Shown here: positions 1 through 56,760 of the stretch, piece by piece
How positions within the stretch are numbered: position 1 is the stretch's first letter
How the letters are laid out: every line of letters begins with the position of its first letter
Origin: Megasphaera stantonii
Lineage (GTDB): Bacteria > Bacillota > Negativicutes > Veillonellales > Megasphaeraceae
Assembly: GCF_003367905.1 (NCBI RefSeq)
Contig: NZ_CP029462.1
Span: forward strand, 372,001-436,000
DNA length: 64,000 nt
Direction of reading: 5' to 3'
Notes under the pieces: generated by a model
What the model saw: the letters and a program-made list of their open reading frames with translations, nothing else
What the model was told of the DNA's origin: nothing
The model's database searches: none
Translations under genes and position numbers: made by a program

Positions 1-328
1 CTACTTCGTCTACCTTGTCGACGGTCTGGCCGAGAACGTTGAAAATACGTCCCAGCACGCCCTTGCCGACGGGAACCTTAATAGGGCCGCCTGTATTTTC
101 CGCAGCCATGCCGCGGACGAGACCGTCTGTAGAACTCATAGCAACGCAGCGGACGACGTCGTCGCCTAAGTGCTGCATAACTTCTGCTACCAAGTCGACA
201 GCCTGTTCGCCTTCCCCGCCGGTGACGTGAAGGGCAGTGTAAATGGCGGGCAAATCTGCTTCGGAAGCAAACCGCACGTCAATAACCGGGCCGATGACCT
301 GGATTACTTTCCCAATGTTATTGCTCAT
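1..328 (-). CDS. atpD: ATP synthase F1 subunit beta (partial, N-terminal part)
   Basis: This is the start of the catalytic beta subunit of F1-ATPase. The reverse strand from 328 reads [20 protein letters not shown] and continues through the beta-barrel domain ([13 protein letters not shown]) to the window edge, so about 109 residues are visible and the nucleotide-binding domain lies outside. An AGGAG ribosome site sits just before the ATG. It follows atpG by 38 bases as the last visible gene of the operon. Identity is certain; only the 3' part is missing. Confidence 0.97.
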
Positions 329-366: not shown

Positions 367-1230
367 CTACTGCAGGGCATTAGCACCGCTGACAATTTCT
401 GTCAGTTCGTTCGTAATGCCGGCCTGACGGACTTTGTTATAATGGACAGTCAATCTGTCGATCAGCTCGCCTGCATTATCCGTTGCCGACGTCATAGCCG
501 TCATACGGGCCCCGAGCTCGCTGGCCGCCGACTGGAGCAGGCTGTTGTACACAAGCATGTCCAGATACTGGGGCAAAAGCGATTCCAAGACCTGATGGGC
601 ATCCGGCGCAAAGAGATACTCTTCTTTCGGACCGGTTTTTTCAGAGCCGTCCTGCTGCGAAATAGGCAGTATTTTGACGGTTTGTACTTCTTGCGATAAG
701 GCTGACTTAAACTTCGTATAAATGATATATACTTCGTCAACTTCGCCAGCCAAAAATTGTTCTGTAGCAACATGGGCAATCTGCTGGGCATCGGTGAACT
801 GCGGCTTATCGGAAAAGCCCGTCCACTTCTGGTCCGGCACGATATGCAAATGCTTTAAATATTCAGCAGGCTTACGGCCTGTCACGAGCAGCATCGAAGC
901 GCTGCGGGGCTTATCTTTCAGCACGGCAACCATGGCCTTGTTGATATTGGAATTAAACGCGCCGGCCAGACCTTTATCAGCCCCGACGATAATGTAGCAC
1001 GTCCTCTTCACTTCGTCATGAGGCGTAAACAAGGCGACTTTTTCGCCTGTAGACGCCGCTGCCAAGCGCTGCAGCATGCCTTCGATTTTTTCCGTATACG
1101 GCGCTGTGGCCAACGCCCTTTCCTGTGCACGGCGCAGTCGTACAGACGATACCATTTTCATGGCTTTCGTAATCTGCTGAGTATTCGTAACGGATTTGAT
1201 CCGCCGGTTTATTTCGCGTGCACTCGGCAT
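367..1230 (-). CDS. atpG: ATP synthase F1 subunit gamma
   Basis: The gamma subunit forms the central rotor shaft that couples c-ring rotation to beta-subunit catalysis. The 287-residue protein has the usual length, with the N-terminal coiled coil typical of the family (MPSAREINRRIKSVTNTQQI) and the conserved C-terminal helix with MTSATDNAGELI and ELTEIVSGANAL. It starts 3 bases after the atpA stop, so it is translated from the same operon mRNA. Nothing is unusual in length or motifs. Confidence 0.97.
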   Translation of the reverse strand: MPSAREINRRIKSVTNTQQITKAMKMVSSVRLRRAQERALATAPYTEKIEGMLQRLAAASTGEKVALFTPHDEVKRTCYIIVGADKGLAGAFNSNINKAMVAVLKDKPRSASMLLVTGRKPAEYLKHLHIVPDQKWTGFSDKPQFTDAQQIAHVATEQFLAGEVDEVYIIYTKFKSALSQEVQTVKILPISQQDGSEKTGPKEEYLFAPDAHQVLESLLPQYLDMLVYNSLLQSAASELGARMTAMTSATDNAGELIDRLTVHYNKVRQAGITNELTEIVSGANALQ

Positions 1231-1233
1231 AGA

Positions 1234-2769
1234 TTATTCCTCCTCTTTAATCAGCTCATGGGTGGCGCTATACTGCTTTGTATATTCGCCGATGGCCTTC
1301 TGGAGGGTTGCTTCTGCGTCCTGGCCGAGTTCCTTCGTCGTCTTGATGCTTTCGCCGACTTCCGGATAATTGGTATGCATGAACGTGATGAAGCCGTCGG
1401 CAAACTGCTGTACTTCCGATACCTGAATCGGCATGAGGTAGTTTTTAACAGCCAAATAAATCTGCATAACCTGGTCTTCGACCGGCATAGGATGATACTG
1501 CGGCTGAATTAAGAGCTGCATCGTCCGTTCGCCTTTATCGATCTGGGCCTTTGTGCTCTTATCGAGGTCAGAGCCAAACTGGGCGAAGGCCGCCAATTCG
1601 CGGTACTGCGCTAAATCCAGGCGAAGGGTACCGGCAATTTTCTTCATAGCCTTAATCTGGGCGGAGCCGCCTACGCGGGATACGGACAAGCCGACGTTGA
1701 TAGCCGGACGGATACCAGAGTTAAAGGCTTCCGTTTCTAGGAATATCTGACCGTCCGTAATGGAAATAACGTTTGTCGGGATGTACGCCGACAAGTCGCC
1801 GGCCAGCGTTTCAATGATCGGCAAGGCTGTAATGGAGCCGCCACCCAAATCATCAGAAAGCTTTGCTGCCCGTTCCAGCAGACGGGAATGTAAGTAGAAT
1901 ACGTCGCCGGGATAGGCTTCACGTCCAGGCGGACGGCGGAGCAGCAAGCTCATGGCACGGTATGCCTGGGCGTGTTTGGACAAGTCGTCATATATGCAGA
2001 GGACGTCCTTGCCCTGATACATGAAGTATTCGCCGATAGATACGCCCGAATACGGAGCCAGGTACTGGAGCGGCGCGCCGTCAGATGCCGTAGCAGCAAC
2101 GACGATAGTATACGCCATCGCGCCGTTTTCTTCCAAAGTACGGACGACGCGGGCAACCGTCGAGGCTTTTTGTCCAATAGCGACGTAAACGCAAATAACG
2201 CCGCTGTCTTTTTGATTTAAAATCGTGTCGATAGCGATAGCCGTCTTGCCCGTACCGCGGTCGCCGATGATCAATTCTCGCTGGCCCCGTCCGATAGGAA
2301 CCATGGAATCGATAGATTTAAGCCCCGTCTGAAGAGGTACCTTTACAGGCTGACGGTCGGCAATACCTGACGCCTGCACTTCGACGAGACGGGATTCTGT
2401 CGTCTTGATTTCCCCTTTGCCGTCGATAGGCGCACCCAAGGGGTTTACGACGCGACCAATCATAGCTTCGCCTACGGGAACGCGCATGACGCGGCCTGTA
2501 CGGCGGACCGTGTCGCCTTCCTTGATGAGGGCGTCATCGCCGAGCAATACGGCGCCGACGTTGTCTTCTTCCAAGTTCAGGGCCATGCCGTAAACGCCGT
2601 GCGGCAGTTCCAGCAGTTCCCCGGACATGGCTTTGTCCAAACCGTAAATGTGGGCAATGCCGTCCCCGACTTCCAGAACGGTGCCGACATCGTCGACGTT
2701 CATTTCCACATTATAATCTTCGATTTGTTTCTTGATTATAGCCGTTATTTCTTCTGGCTTCATTTTCAT
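1234..2769 (-). CDS. atpA: ATP synthase F1 subunit alpha
   Basis: This is the non-catalytic nucleotide-binding subunit of the F1 hexamer, 511 residues and full length. The P-loop GDRGTGKT is at residues 169-176, and the alpha signature region ([17 protein letters not shown]) follows. The first ATG at 2769 overlaps the atpH stop in a TAATG junction, which favours coupled translation. A second ATG two codons downstream is an equally possible start. It lies in the middle of the atp operon. Confidence 0.97.
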
Positions 2770-3335
2770 TATTCGTCCGTCACCCCATTCGTCACGTCAG
2801 CCTGGAGCAGTTTATGCTGCATATCGCGCAGCTGCCGCCGGAGGCTGCCGTCTATTAATTTGTCGCCGATCTGGATGACCATGCCGCCGATGAGCGACGG
2901 GTCGATGTAATACAGCGGCTCGATCTTCTTGCCTGTCATCTTTTCCAATCCGGCAACCAGTTTTTCTTCTTCCGCCACCGTCAGCGCCTTGACGACGCGC
3001 ACCTTCGCGACTTCGATGTTCTGCGCCGCCCGCGCCAGGTCGATAAACCCGTCGATAGCGGGAACAATAGCCGCTTCGCGCCGCCTGTCGATCATGACGT
3101 AGAGAAACTGCAGTACCAGCGGCTCTACGTCGCCGGCAAATATTTTCTGCAGCGTATCCTTCTTTACGCCGGGCTGTATGAGCGGATGGCAGATAAACTT
3201 CTGCAAATCAGGATTTTCCTGCATGGCATCGCGGACAGCTTTCAACTCTGTTCCAAATATATCAAGTTTGCCCTGTTCTTTTGCAATATCGAACATAGCC
3301 TGGCTGTATTTGCTGTATACGACTTCCGGTATCAT
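2769..3335 (-). CDS. atpH: ATP synthase F1 subunit delta
   Basis: The delta subunit joins the peripheral stalk to the top of F1. The 188-residue protein is all-alpha in its N-terminal half and ends with the family motif seen here as [22 protein letters not shown] followed by a short tail. It starts 4 bases after the atpF stop and overlaps atpA by one base. Its position between b and alpha is the standard bacterial order. Confidence 0.95.
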
Positions 3336-3339
3336 AGCG

Positions 3340-3840
3340 TCAGTTCCCCTTTACGCGGTTTTCCTGAAGCTGATCGATGCAGTTTGCAACCAGTTTTGCA
3401 TTCATATCCGGGTCCAGATTCTTTTTAAGCAGCTTTTCTGCCACAGCCATAGACAGCGTTACTACTTCGTTGCGCATTTCCCGGATAGCAACTTCCCGTT
3501 CGTTTGCAATTTCCGCTTGGGCAATCTGTTTTTCCCGGGCAATCTGTTCGCGTATTGCGCTGAGCTGGGCCTGCGCCTCTTTATCAGCCTGCTTTACGGC
3601 TTTATCGATAATAGCCTGGGCTTCGGCGCGGGCGCTGCGGAGCTGCGCTTCGTATTCGGCCTGCAGCTGCGCCGCCGTTTCTCTGGCCTGGGCCGCGGCG
3701 TCGAGATCCGATTCGATCTTGTTGCGGCGTTCTTCCAAAACCTTCAGCAGCGGTTTATACGCAAATTTTGCCAAAATAGCCACTAAGATAAAGAAGTTGA
3801 TAATTTGGAACAACAACGTTCCTTCGGTTAAACTAACCAA
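3340..3840 (-). CDS. atpF: ATP synthase F0 subunit b
   Basis: The b subunit forms the peripheral stator stalk. The 166-residue protein has one N-terminal membrane segment (about residues 7-25, FQIINFFILVAILAKF) followed by a long Ala/Glu/Arg-rich coiled coil, as expected. Gene order c-b-delta-alpha supports the call. Only one b gene is present, so the stalk would be a b homodimer rather than the b/b' pair of phototrophs. Confidence 0.96.
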   Translation of the reverse strand: MVSLTEGTLLFQIINFFILVAILAKFAYKPLLKVLEERRNKIESDLDAAAQARETAAQLQAEYEAQLRSARAEAQAIIDKAVKQADKEAQAQLSAIREQIAREKQIAQAEIANEREVAIREMRNEVVTLSMAVAEKLLKKNLDPDMNAKLVANCIDQLQENRVKGN

Positions 3841-3882: not shown

Positions 3883-4131
3883 TTAAATAAAGGGATTGGC
3901 AAATACGAGCACGATGGCGATAACGGCTGCGATAATAGGCATGGATTCGATCAAGCCAACGGAAATGAGGAAGTTGGTCAGCAGCTTGCCGCCCATTTCA
4001 GGCTGACGTGCTACGCCTTCCAGCATTTTAGAAGCAGCGTGGCCGTCGCCGACTGCAGCGCCGAGAGCCGCCAAACCGATACCAATTGCTGCGCCAAGAG
4101 CCGATAACCCTAATATCAATGCATTTTCCAT
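3883..4131 (-). CDS. atpE: ATP synthase F0 subunit c (rotor ring)
   Basis: Subunit c is the hairpin that forms the ion-carrying rotor ring. The ATG at 4131 is chosen over one ten codons upstream because AGGAGG precedes it by 8 bases and the product MENALILGLSALGAA begins like other c subunits. The 82-residue protein has two hydrophobic helices joined by the ARQPE polar loop. The ion-binding carboxylate is E62 in helix 2 (LIESMP). Unusually, D29 in helix 1 (AVGDGHA) lies 33 residues before it, where sodium-type rings carry glutamine and many proton-type rings carry a neutral residue. S63 follows E62. This arrangement resembles the two-carboxylate c rings described in Fusobacterium nucleatum; ion specificity is inferred, not shown. 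Confidence 0.97.
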   Translation of the reverse strand: MENALILGLSALGAAIGIGLAALGAAVGDGHAASKMLEGVARQPEMGGKLLTNFLISVGLIESMPIIAAVIAIVLVFANPFI

Positions 4132-4167
4132 AATCAATGACCTCCTAAATACGATATACAATGTAGT

Positions 4168-4842
4168 TTAATGCCCGCCCTGGAAGGAAGGAGCTAAGTA
4201 CGATGTCGTCAATATAGTAAAAATAAACGCTTGAATTAAGCCGATGAACAAGCTGAAGATCAGCCAGACAATCGGCACGCCTGCCGGAACGAGGAAGTAC
4301 AGCACTTCCAACAGGATTTCCCCGGCCAGAATGTTGCCGAAAAGACGGAAAGCCAACGTCAGCGGCTTTGTAAATTCTTCCAGCACATTGATGATGACAA
4401 AGGGAGCAAATGGCTGGAAGAAGTGCTTAAAGTGCTTCTTCACACCCTGGTTTTTCAATGCGATAACATGAACCATCGCGGAAGATACCAGCGCCAAGGC
4501 TACGGTCGTATTCAAATCGTTCGTAGGCGACGCCAGAAGATGGTTTGTCGGCAAGAGCCCCAATTCGTTGGAAAACAAGATGAACAGAAACATGGTCAGT
4601 AAGATAGATACAACCTGACTGTACTTGGGGCCAAGGGTTTCCTTAAACTGGGCGAGAAGCGCCGTGACAACCATTTCCATGGCGTTCTGCATCCCTGACG
4701 GGACGAGAGACCGCTTTCGCGTGGCTGCCAAGGAAACGATGATGACTAAGATACCGACGATCCACGTCATGATAATCGTATCCATATTGACGTTCATCCC
4801 AAGGATCTGGACGACCCAATGATGCCCCGTATGTAATTCCAT
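4168..4842 (-). CDS. atpB: ATP synthase F0 subunit a
   Basis: Subunit a is the stator membrane protein that carries the ion half-channels. The 224-residue protein has several membrane segments and the conserved helix with the essential arginine (TLAFRLFGNILAGEI), followed by the C-terminal helix ending in TILTTSYLAPSFQGGH. It sits between atpI and atpE as usual. An AGGAGG-like ribosome site precedes the ATG at 4842. Confidence 0.96.
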   Translation of the reverse strand: MELHTGHHWVVQILGMNVNMDTIIMTWIVGILVIIVSLAATRKRSLVPSGMQNAMEMVVTALLAQFKETLGPKYSQVVSILLTMFLFILFSNELGLLPTNHLLASPTNDLNTTVALALVSSAMVHVIALKNQGVKKHFKHFFQPFAPFVIINVLEEFTKPLTLAFRLFGNILAGEILLEVLYFLVPAGVPIVWLIFSLFIGLIQAFIFTILTTSYLAPSFQGGH

Positions 4843-4860: not shown

Positions 4861-5241
4861 TTACCGCTGGCGTACATGCCGGATCAGCATGTCGGCAAAA
4901 ATCGTCACCCGATAGGTAAACAATCCGGCTACAGCAGCCCCAAAATGAATAGACGGGAACTGCGCCACGACGATTAATACCAGAGCGATCATGACAAGAC
5001 GCAGGACGGCGCCGCCCCGTATCAAGGCGACAGCCCGCGCCGGCGGTAATTGTACGGCTCGCGTAGAGCGGCTGGTCAGCATCAAAAAATAGGCGATGTT
5101 GATTCCGTTGCCGATACACCAGCCCGTAATGTACTGCGTTTCCCCGCTTACGGCAAGGACGGCAGCGACAAAACATGTAAATCCGATGAGCTTGCACAAC
5201 GTCGCTTTTACATACCTTACAAATTCTTCCACCAGCACCAC
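4861..5241 (-). CDS. atpI: ATP synthase subunit I
   Basis: AtpI is a small membrane protein that helps assemble the c ring. The 126-residue product has about four hydrophobic segments (for example LIGFTCFVAAVLAV and RLVMIALVLIVVAQF), the expected size and topology. It lies directly upstream of atpB and 2 bases downstream of the atpZ-like gene. The family is poorly conserved, so the call rests on topology plus position. Confidence 0.85.
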   Translation of the reverse strand: MVLVEEFVRYVKATLCKLIGFTCFVAAVLAVSGETQYITGWCIGNGINIAYFLMLTSRSTRAVQLPPARAVALIRGGAVLRLVMIALVLIVVAQFPSIHFGAAVAGLFTYRVTIFADMLIRHVRQR

Positions 5242-5243
5242 CC

Positions 5244-5519
5244 TTATTTGTCTTTTTCCATATGAGACGGCTTGTCTTCATTCAAGCGCACGGCTTTCTT
5301 ATACAAGGACAAAAAACCAGACGCGGCGCCTATGAGGGAACACACAATCATGCCCCACGGCGCCGTTCCGGCATGTGAGTCAATAAAACGTCCTAACGCT
5401 ACGCCCGCGCAGATGCAGACAAACAAGGTCAGCCCTAAGGAACCGGCAATTGCAACGATATTCCAGAGCTTCATCTGATTTGCATTGTCATCATGAGATT
5501 CAGTACGCCTCCGCTTCAT
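5244..5519 (-). CDS. AtpZ/AtpI family membrane protein
   Basis: This 91-residue protein has two membrane segments (about residues 20-40 and 55-75) with the motif GVALGRFIDSHAGTAPWGMI, which resembles the AtpZ/AtpQ family that precedes AtpI in many bacteria. Proposed roles in that family are magnesium or calcium handling and ATP synthase assembly. It is the first gene of the atp operon, 83 bases downstream of a good promoter. Family membership is inferred from position and topology. Confidence 0.82.
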   Translation of the reverse strand: MKRRRTESHDDNANQMKLWNIVAIAGSLGLTLFVCICAGVALGRFIDSHAGTAPWGMIVCSLIGAASGFLSLYKKAVRLNEDKPSHMEKDK

Positions 5520-54108: not shown

Positions 54109-56760
54109 ATGGATGAGGCTATCCTGCATGGCTTAAACGCCGAACAGCGCGCCGTCGTCGCCGATTTGGATCATCATATATTGTTAAACGCGCCGGCCGG
54201 CACGGGAAAAACCAACGTGCTGGCTCGCCGCGTCGCCGCTATCGTCGAGTCGGGACGAGCCGAAGGAGCTCAGATTCTCTGCCTGACCTTTACGAACCGG
54301 GCCTGCAAAGAATTGAAACATCGAATTTTTTCTACGGCACACGAAAAAGGCCTCGACGTCGTCGTCAAGACCATTCACGGTTTCTGCTACTCTCTCATCA
54401 AGGAAGAAAGCAAGGCCGGCTCCGACGTATGCAGCGATTTTCTCGTCTACGACGACGAGGACTGCAAAAACATCGTCGCCAGCCTGCCCCTTTCTCTCGA
54501 TGTATCTGCCCGGGGAAGGATGCAGAATATACAAAATTTCATAGAAGCGTCCAAAAAATACTGCGCCCTCCATGACTGCCAAAGCGGCGACGTACTGGCC
54601 GACTTTGCCGCCGGCGCTGCGGCTGTCTGCCGGGACGACGGCTGTCTCCGCTCGTTCTGCACGAATTATACGGACAGCGTCGACGCCGAACTGGAACAGT
54701 GGCTGGCAATAAACGGCGTCGACCTCATGGAGCAGTACGCCGCGGCGTTGTCGGCCAACCATGCCCTGGACTTTGAAGATCTCATCGTCCGGGCCTCTCT
54801 CCTGCTGCGGCAGGACGACGTATGCCGGCGCTGGCAAAACCGCTTCGCCTACATCGCCATCGACGAAATGCAGGATACGAGCGACATCGAATACGACCTC
54901 ATTTCCCGCCTGTTTCCGGGGCGTATCATCCTCCTCTGCGGCGATTATTTCCAGACCATTTACGAATGGCGCGGCTCTCACCCCGACGCCATCCTGCGCC
55001 GCTTCACTGCGGATTACCATCCCGTCCGCATTACCTTTACGATAAATTACCGGGCTACGGAAACGCTGCTCCAGGCGTCGTCAGACTGTCTGGCCAACCT
55101 GTTCGGCCCGTCTGTCGCCTCTTTTTATCCCGCGCCCGGCACAGCTGCCGGCCATGAACAGGGCGAACCCATCGTCGCCGTGGAAACGGCCCATTTCATG
55201 GAAGAAGCGCGCTGGATATTCCGTCAAATCGCCGCATTGCCGCCGCAGGAACGGACTAGAGCCTGCATCATGACCCGGACGAATCGCTGCAATAAGGTCA
55301 TCTGGAACGGTGTCCGCTCGCACAATGAGGGACTGCCGCCGGAACAGCGCCTGCCCTTTACGATGATCGACCAGTTTCAGTTGTTTAAACGGCAGGAATG
55401 CAAGGACGTCACGGCCTTTCTGCGCCTGACGATGAACAAGCACGACGCCCTGAGCCTGAAGCGCATCCTCCTGCGCTTTGCCGAACGCGTCGGCCGCCGC
55501 ACCATCGACACCATCGAGAGCCCGTCGTACCGCCGCCTGGGTCTGGGGCTGTGCGACTTCATCGACGGCGACGCCCTAGCCTTCGGCGATCCCTTCGGCC
55601 TGCTGCTGACGGCGTTGGAAAAAGGCAATGTCGTCGTCTTCGACGTAGAGAGCACCGGCACGGACACGACGCGGGACGACATCATTCAGATTGCCGCGAT
55701 CCGCCTGAACGAGCGCTGCGAAATCGCCGGGAAATTCAACGCCTACGTCCGGCCCAGCCGCAGCGTCGGCGATTCGTACTATATCCACCATATCAGCGAC
55801 GAACTGCTCCGCCGCGAAGGCCGCGACCCCAAGGAAGCCCTCGCCGACTTTCTCCGGTTTGCCGACGGCGCCGTCATCGTCGGTCACAACGTGTCCTACG
55901 ACCTGCGCATCCTGCGCAGCGAGCTGCGACGCCTGTCCATGGACAGCCCCGACGACATCGCCTATTACGATACGCTGGATATATTCCGCCGCTTTTATCC
56001 CAACCTGCCCAATCACAAGCTCAGCTATTTGAGCAACCGTTTCACGCCGGACACCCAGTCGAGCCACGACGCCTTCGACGACATCGTCGCCACGGCGGCC
56101 ATCCTGCGCTACGCCCTGGACGAGCACATCCGTCCCTATACGGCCCAGCGCCGGTCCTGCATAGCCATTTATGCCTCGTTGTTTAAACCGGTAAGCGAAA
56201 AACTCCACGAACTGCGGCAGCTGTCGTACACGCAGCGCCCCTGCGAGCTCATCGCCGCCGTCATGCTCCGCTGCGGCGTAAAAGACTACTATGAAGGGCG
56301 GCAGAGCCGCACAGAACAAGAAGAACACATCGACCGCATGGAAAATATCCGCAAGCTGTACAGCCTGGCTAAGGAAACGGACACCCCCGGCCAGGACCCG
56401 CGCGACGCCCTGACGGAATTTCTCCAGCTCACGGCCCTGTCCAACAGCGAATTAGACAGCCTGCTGGAAAAAAAGCCCCAAATCCCGATTATTACAGTAC
56501 ATCAGGCTAAGGGGCTGGAGTTCGATTATGTATTTTTAGCGTGCCTTCAGGACGGCGTCTTTCCCTTGTCCCGCACTGCCGATGACAGCCGCGAGCTCGA
56601 CGAGGAAAAGCGGCTGTTTTACGTCGCCATGACGCGAGCCAGGAAACGGCTGTTCCTAAGCTGGCACCGCCGCGAAGGAAAGCACGTCTACGGGCCAAGC
56701 CGGTTTATCGCCGCCATTCCCGGCCAGTATCTGTTACAGGAGGCCGGCCAGGCCAAATAA
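54109..56760 (+). CDS. UvrD-family helicase with inserted DnaQ-like exonuclease
   Basis: The 883-residue protein combines a superfamily 1 helicase with a 3'-5' exonuclease. Helicase motifs: I NAPAGTGKT (residues 27-35), II IDEMQD (about 252), III GDYFQTIYEWRG, IV INYRATETL, V VHQAKGLEFDYVF (about 797) and VI YVAMTRARKRL. Between IV and V lies a DEDDh exonuclease, about residues 506-690, with FDVEST (D512, E514), GHNVSYD (about D598), H653 and D658. The gene has its own weak promoter and AAAGGAG site. Its 3' end overlaps the convergent chromate transporter gene by 27 bases. A repair or RecBCD-like processing role is inferred. Confidence 0.93.
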   Translation: MDEAILHGLNAEQRAVVADLDHHILLNAPAGTGKTNVLARRVAAIVESGRAEGAQILCLTFTNRACKELKHRIFSTAHEKGLDVVVKTIHGFCYSLIKEESKAGSDVCSDFLVYDDEDCKNIVASLPLSLDVSARGRMQNIQNFIEASKKYCALHDCQSGDVLADFAAGAAAVCRDDGCLRSFCTNYTDSVDAELEQWLAINGVDLMEQYAAALSANHALDFEDLIVRASLLLRQDDVCRRWQNRFAYIAIDEMQDTSDIEYDLISRLFPGRIILLCGDYFQTIYEWRGSHPDAILRRFTADYHPVRITFTINYRATETLLQASSDCLANLFGPSVASFYPAPGTAAGHEQGEPIVAVETAHFMEEARWIFRQIAALPPQERTRACIMTRTNRCNKVIWNGVRSHNEGLPPEQRLPFTMIDQFQLFKRQECKDVTAFLRLTMNKHDALSLKRILLRFAERVGRRTIDTIESPSYRRLGLGLCDFIDGDALAFGDPFGLLLTALEKGNVVVFDVESTGTDTTRDDIIQIAAIRLNERCEIAGKFNAYVRPSRSVGDSYYIHHISDELLRREGRDPKEALADFLRFADGAVIVGHNVSYDLRILRSELRRLSMDSPDDIAYYDTLDIFRRFYPNLPNHKLSYLSNRFTPDTQSSHDAFDDIVATAAILRYALDEHIRPYTAQRRSCIAIYASLFKPVSEKLHELRQLSYTQRPCELIAAVMLRCGVKDYYEGRQSRTEQEEHIDRMENIRKLYSLAKETDTPGQDPRDALTEFLQLTALSNSELDSLLEKKPQIPIITVHQAKGLEFDYVFLACLQDGVFPLSRTADDSRELDEEKRLFYVAMTRARKRLFLSWHRREGKHVYGPSRFIAAIPGQYLLQEAGQAK

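Follow-up and report, generated by a model that had tools for sequence, protein, structure and literature searches.

Asp at the second-carboxylate position of the ATP synthase c subunit of Megasphaera stantonii: a residue usual in its class and probably part of a proton-coupled ring

The window analysed here is a stretch of 64,000 nucleotides of the Megasphaera stantonii genome (contig NZ_CP029462.1, positions 372,001 to 436,000). A complete atp operon lies at its start and is transcribed in the order AtpZ-like, AtpI, a, c, b, delta, alpha, gamma, beta, epsilon. The features of this operon, including the codons of the c subunit discussed below, are collected in Table 1. Elsewhere in the window, at 54109-56760 on the plus strand, an 883-residue UvrD-type helicase is encoded, in which an RNase_T exonuclease domain (509-666) lies inside the UvrD_C match (308-854).

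Table 1. Features of the atp operon and of the atpE gene; positions are those of the window unless a locus is named.
Feature	Position	Strand	Basis
AtpZ-like protein (ATPase_gene1)	5244..5519	minus	PF09527, 58.8 bits
AtpI, ring assembly factor	4861..5241	minus	PF03899, 25.6 bits, barely above the cut-off of 25.1
ATP synthase subunit a	4168..4842	minus	PF00119, 177.6 bits
atpE, ATP synthase subunit c, 82 aa	3883..4131 (stop codon 3883-3885; coding 3886-4131)	minus	ORF, Pfam PF00137, NCBIfam, PDB alignments
Asp29 codon GAC, second (helix 1) carboxylate	4047-4045	minus	sequence; aligned to E32 of 3zk1; Asp in 15/15 genus genomes
Glu62 codon GAA, ion-binding carboxylate	3948-3946	minus	sequence; aligned to E65 of 3zk1
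Ser63 codon TCC	3945-3943	minus	sequence; aligned to S66 of 3zk1
Met64 codon ATG	3942-3940	minus	sequence; aligned to T67 of 3zk1
Ile67 codon ATC, place of Tyr70 of Na+ rings	3933-3931	minus	sequence; 3zk1 alignment; census
ATP synthase subunit b	3340..3840	minus	PF00430, 106.4 bits
ATP synthase subunit delta	2769..3335	minus	PF00213, 154.7 bits
ATP synthase subunit alpha	1234..2769	minus	PF00006, 282.1 bits
ATP synthase subunit gamma	367..1230	minus	PF00231, 338.6 bits
ATP synthase subunit beta, gene start; rest past window start	1..328	minus	L313:1610-3028, PF00006, 247 bits
ATP synthase subunit epsilon, after beta, outside window	L313:1184-1606		PF02823, 79.6 bits

The list of open reading frames gives the minus-strand atpE frame an upstream TTG start at 4161, and the sequence contains an ATG at 4131-4129 with an AGGAGG at 4146-4141, nine bases upstream of it. 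Translation of the window shows that the plus strand of 3883-4131 encodes no c-subunit protein. The atpE product matches PF00137 with 56.6 bits (cut-off 24) and NCBIfam PRK06876.1 with 82.8 bits (cut-off 71), and it is the sole PF00137 match in the 2.65 Mb, single-contig genome. Judged by these family matches, it is the F-type ATP synthase subunit c of the organism. The AlphaFold model of the protein is a single helical hairpin with a mean pLDDT of 93.8; the predicted helices span residues 2-42 and 44-78 around the loop R42-Q43-P44, and Glu62 lies in helix 2.

Read from the codons, Asp29 in helix 1 stands exactly 33 residues before the ion-binding Glu62, which is followed by Ser63 and Met64, while Ile67 lies five residues after Glu62. 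Alignment to the Na+ ring subunit of Fusobacterium nucleatum (3zk1) places D29 on E32, E62 on E65, S63 on S66, M64 on T67, and I67 on Y70. An earlier note on this DNA had described the spacing of 33, the placement of Asp29 at the Gln32/Glu32 position, and a kept Ser63 followed by Met instead of Thr, and all of this is borne out by the alignment. The note had overlooked that Ile67 replaces Tyr70 and that Asp is the usual residue in the class. According to passages of PMC3692424, Na+ in the F. nucleatum ring is bound by three side chains (Glu65, Glu32, and Ser66), the carbonyl of Val63, and a water molecule; this water also contacts Thr67, and Tyr70 forms a hydrogen bond with Glu65. Counting Gln/Glu32, Ser66, Thr67, and Tyr70 as the partners of the ion-binding Glu, the M. 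stantonii subunit lacks three of four. The Ser directly after Glu62 is present, helix 1 carries Asp29 instead of Gln or Glu, and Met64 and Ile67 occupy the places of the Thr or Ser two residues and the Tyr five residues after Glu. The first hairpin of the Na+ ring chain 4bem has Phe, not Tyr, at the Tyr70 place.

Among the solved rings, the F. nucleatum c11 ring resembles the M. stantonii subunit in having a second carboxylate in the same column, in the Glu and Ser, and in 43% identity, but it has Glu instead of Asp and retains Thr67 and Tyr70. The mycobacterial rings (4v1f, 7jg5, 8j0s, and 9vks; 39-41% identity) share the Asp 33 residues before Glu and the Ile at the Tyr70 place, whereas they carry Ala at the position of Ser63 and Tyr-Phe at that of Pro65-Ile66. 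All four chains show the pattern D/EAA/I. By the titles of their PDB chains, solved c subunits with Asp at the column come from M. tuberculosis, M. smegmatis, and M. abscessus, and we take M. phlei to be the source species of one such solved mycobacterial c subunit. The Asp version is thus already known from mycobacteria. The earlier description of an Asp variant of the two-carboxylate motif holds formally, as a second Asp/Glu does lie in helix 1 at the expected spacing, but the variant is not new, being present in four mycobacterial rings and the norm of the class. Together with the aliphatic residue at the Tyr70 place, the M. stantonii subunit shows the mycobacterial-like combination.

The H+ rings of the Bacillus PS3 type (6n2d and 7wem) have the same fold and presumably differ by an Asn in this column and by an Ala following the Glu. 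The Na+ ring of Ilyobacter tartaricus (1yce) also has the same fold and, we assume, carries both Thr67 and Tyr70, which are missing in M. stantonii. At the column, the I. tartaricus ring has Gln where M. stantonii has Asp, as given in a part of PMC3692424. The N-type ring of Burkholderia pseudomallei shares the second carboxylate and the Met two residues after Glu, but differs in Glu30, Thr62, and Tyr66 and belongs to an N-type ATPase with 17 c subunits (sections of PMC5376962). M. tuberculosis and Streptococcus pneumoniae are treated as H+-driven double-carboxylate cases in portions of Schulz et al. 2013 (PMC3692424), and bedaquiline contacts described in an excerpt of PMC5874750 include the mycobacterial Asp32 and Glu65.

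Overall similarity gives conflicting rankings. The top two PDB fold matches of the AtpE model are M. smegmatis rings and spinach comes third; 4bem, 1yce, and 3zk1, all Na+ rings, rank 25, 26, and 29. This ranking is weak evidence for an H+ ring. A plain sequence search puts a Na+ ring subunit of Acetobacterium woodii first among the PDB chains (4bem_J, 65.6 bits as the sum of two hairpins); the F. nucleatum chain 3zk1, at 59.7 bits, also exceeds mycobacterial 4v1f (51.8 bits). A profile search returns the same order (92.3, 83.0, and 72.2), and the mycobacterial chains score below Na+ and chloroplast rings in both the single-query and the profile search. The identity of the M. stantonii subunit to these Na+ and mycobacterial rings is approximately equal (38-44%). 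Consequently, overall similarity does not decide the ion.

The distribution of residues at the column was examined in three sets of c-subunit sequences. The class sample comprised 102 rows, made up of the best-scoring loci and places chosen by genus, and was drawn from 15 genus, 17 family, 61 order, and 200 class genomes. For the named genome loci, 450 were confirmed and the best 80 were used. The phylum sample consisted of 100 hand-picked places out of 134 genomes with a match among 149 searched; each genome contributed a single place, and most genera did so too. Four genomes that belong to the class were omitted, along with several further ones that included the weakest matches. After removal of 19 V-type or partial rows, 282 of 301 rows were kept. 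The census left out 11 repeat loci of genomes already represented, the Rnf locus L212, and the loci L075 and L091, which gave no match. Because the class and named sets share genomes, repeats were removed by reducing the rows to 198 distinct sequences.

Asp occupies the column in all 15 genus genomes, so Asp29 is not a chance residue; Ser63 is likewise present in 15 of 15. The class rows contain Asp in 89, Asn in 12, and Gln in 1 of 102, and the named loci, as the best 80 of those confirmed, contain Asp in 78 and Asn in 2. These counts make Asp the default of the lineage, as far as it was sampled. The wider phylum sample shows Gln in 71 rows, Asp and Asn in 9 each, Glu in 6, Met in 3, and Ile in 2, and 2 of these 100 rows, both from outside the class, combine Asp with Ser after Glu. 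Two individual cases were also recorded. Genome G075, of the same class, carries two F-type c subunits (L092 and L093), one with Q/ESL/Y, N-ATPase-like by appearance, and one with D/ESV/I. The loci L112 and L113 (genomes G156 and G090) combine Asn29, Ser63, and Leu67 (N/ESM/L), a rare pairing of an amide with Ser.

The distinct sequences fall into two kinds of ring. Where Asp or Asn stands at the column, the Tyr70 position holds Ile, Leu, or Ala (115 of 115), and where Gln or Glu stands there, it holds Tyr or Phe (78 of 78); the remaining five sequences, with Met or Ile at the column, have Tyr or Phe. The full Na+ set, with Ser/Thr at 63, Thr/Ser at 64, and Tyr at 67, is found in 29 rows, all with Gln or Glu, and in none of the 176 Asp rows. 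Both the Na+ chains 3zk1 and 4bem (hairpin 1) and the H+ chains 2wie and 4mjn combine Gln/Glu with Tyr/Phe. The Gln/Glu kind therefore holds Na+ and H+ rings alike and is not itself a Na+ class.

A FastTree tree was built without the site columns, which left about 80 columns and weak support. On this tree, the two kinds are separated by one change, or by two once eight PDB chains join the tree, which indicates a deep divergence and no repeated coevolution. For the same reason, a Fisher test of the pairing between the column and the Tyr70 position was set aside, as its p value is not independent evidence. The eight nearest rows of each mycobacterial chain are all Asp/Asn rows, and those of 3zk1, 4bem hairpin 1, 2wie, and 4mjn are Gln/Glu rows. 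Within the Asp/Asn kind, the best tree requires at least 12 Asp/Asn swaps, with 4 of 12 differing pairs on supported branches, and at least 17 Ser/Ala swaps at position 63, with 2 of 17 pairs on supported branches. Frequent Asp/Asn exchange is expected if Asp29 stays protonated, and a constitutively protonated second carboxylate is deemed equivalent to Gln or Asn in parts of Schulz et al. 2013 (PMC3692424).

Coevolution of Asp29 with Ser63 was considered as well. The raw counts of distinct sequences are strong (Asp with Ser 61, Asp with Ala 33, Asn with Ser 2, Asn with Ala 17, and Asn with Val 2), but only four supported independent Asp/Asn pairs and two Ser/Ala pairs are available. A sign test on these pairs is unable to reach 0.05, and no such coevolution is claimed.

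The explanation that best accommodates these observations is a ring of the mycobacterial/Bacillus-like kind, coupled to H+, to which a probability of about 0.72 is assigned. Glu62 would be the carboxylate that loads and releases the travelling proton. Asp29 would point from helix 1 into the ion site of the assembled ring and stay protonated there, acting as a polar, hydrogen-bonding neighbor that Asn could replace, a role also proposed for the second carboxylate in M. tuberculosis. This reading draws on Asp as the clade norm, the pairing of Asp/Asn with aliphatic residues, the missing Na+ set in the Asp rows, the Asp/Asn exchange, and the M. smegmatis fold matches. It also draws on the M. stantonii genome, where nothing matches the Na+ decarboxylase beta family, and on Sporomusa acidovorans, a member of the same class whose c subunit (L157) reads D/ESV/I. 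That species is entered with an H+ ATP synthase in Table 1 of PMC8578096, although the entry is possibly itself a sequence-based call. Against H+ coupling stand Ser63, which is kept like Ser66 of Na+ rings and is Ala in mycobacterial rings, the higher scores of the Na+ ring chains, and the presence of an Rnf-type gene.

The same three points, together with the second carboxylate in the right column, would favor a Na+-coupled ring, in which Glu62 and Ser63, along with a backbone carbonyl and a protonated Asp29, would hold Na+; such a site would match that of Fusobacterium with Asp for Glu. Ser63, invariant in the genus rows, keeps Na+ alive as a possibility. The Rnf-type gene is the one match of the RnfD/NqrB family in the genome; in certain anaerobes, such as Acidaminococcus fermentans, Rnf is a Na+ pump (PMC8473912). 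Na+ bioenergetics is also common in the class, as the Na+ decarboxylase beta family is found in 171 of 200 class genomes. However, it is found in 0 of the 9 family genomes in the class sample, which suggests that its absence is specific to the family of the window, and the c-subunit motif is unchanged there. Such a Na+ ring would lack its Gln/Glu32, Thr67, and Tyr70 partners, and the Ser/Ala switches are unlike the behavior of a fixed ion-selectivity residue. The Na+ motif published in PMC4320612 and PMC7911925 reads Q....ES/T. For the N-type ring of B. pseudomallei, a sequence-based prediction of Na+ was followed by measurements that showed predominantly H+ coupling, according to sections of PMC5376962; this case is a warning against calling Na+ from such motifs. 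A Na+-coupled ring is thus unlikely, and the suggestion of the earlier note that the Asp could mean Na+ coupling is largely unsupported by these comparisons.

Nor do the data tie the motif to Na+ decarboxylase pumps: the Asp29 motif occurs both with and without the beta family, and the nine sampled family genomes that lack the pump family keep it. As a separate observation, an order relative with a 2.4 Mb genome contains eight OAD_beta matches, six of them listed at a spacing of about 3.5-3.7 kb, and this array (G019:C1:66733-85775) looks like a tandemly amplified operon.

It is also improbable that in Megasphaera and its relatives Asp29, Glu62, and Ser63 bind Na+ by an unseen geometry that uses Asp for Gln or Glu and dispenses with the Thr/Tyr lock, in which case a whole class of gut anaerobes would make ATP with Na+ or with both ions. 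More doubtful still is a promiscuous ring, which the earlier note had raised as a proton/sodium hybrid and which would use H+ at low pH and Na+ in large Na+ excess, a behavior reported from Methanosarcina acetivorans. Two carboxylates and Ser63 would suit such a ring, and passages of PMC3692424 describe selectivity as set by the site and the ion concentrations and mention a reported coupling of M. acetivorans to both ions, but the set of Na+ ligands is incomplete in M. stantonii. Very improbable, finally, is a role of Asp29 as a pH sensor whose deprotonation at high pH stops the motor: the proposal came from two-carboxylate E. coli mutants, whose pH dependence is both summarized and reinterpreted in parts of PMC3692424, and the frequent natural Asp/Asn exchange suggests a small cost of losing the acid.

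In the literature searched, which left most subscription journals outside its scope, no coupling-ion data for Megasphaera were found. The M. stantonii ring, in its preferred reading as H+-coupled, is most likely an ordinary member of a known two-acid kind that is normal for its class, and as far as the window is concerned the finding is unremarkable. If it were true that an Asp-Ser site takes Na+, the sequence rules by which Na+ ATP synthases are called would need revision. For the class, the result has a wider meaning, since most of its genomes (171 of 200) carry the Na+ decarboxylase beta family, yet 101 of the 102 sampled class c subunits have Asp or Asn without the full Na+ set. If the rings of the class are proton-driven, such bacteria would need to exchange Na+ for H+ ahead of ATP synthesis.
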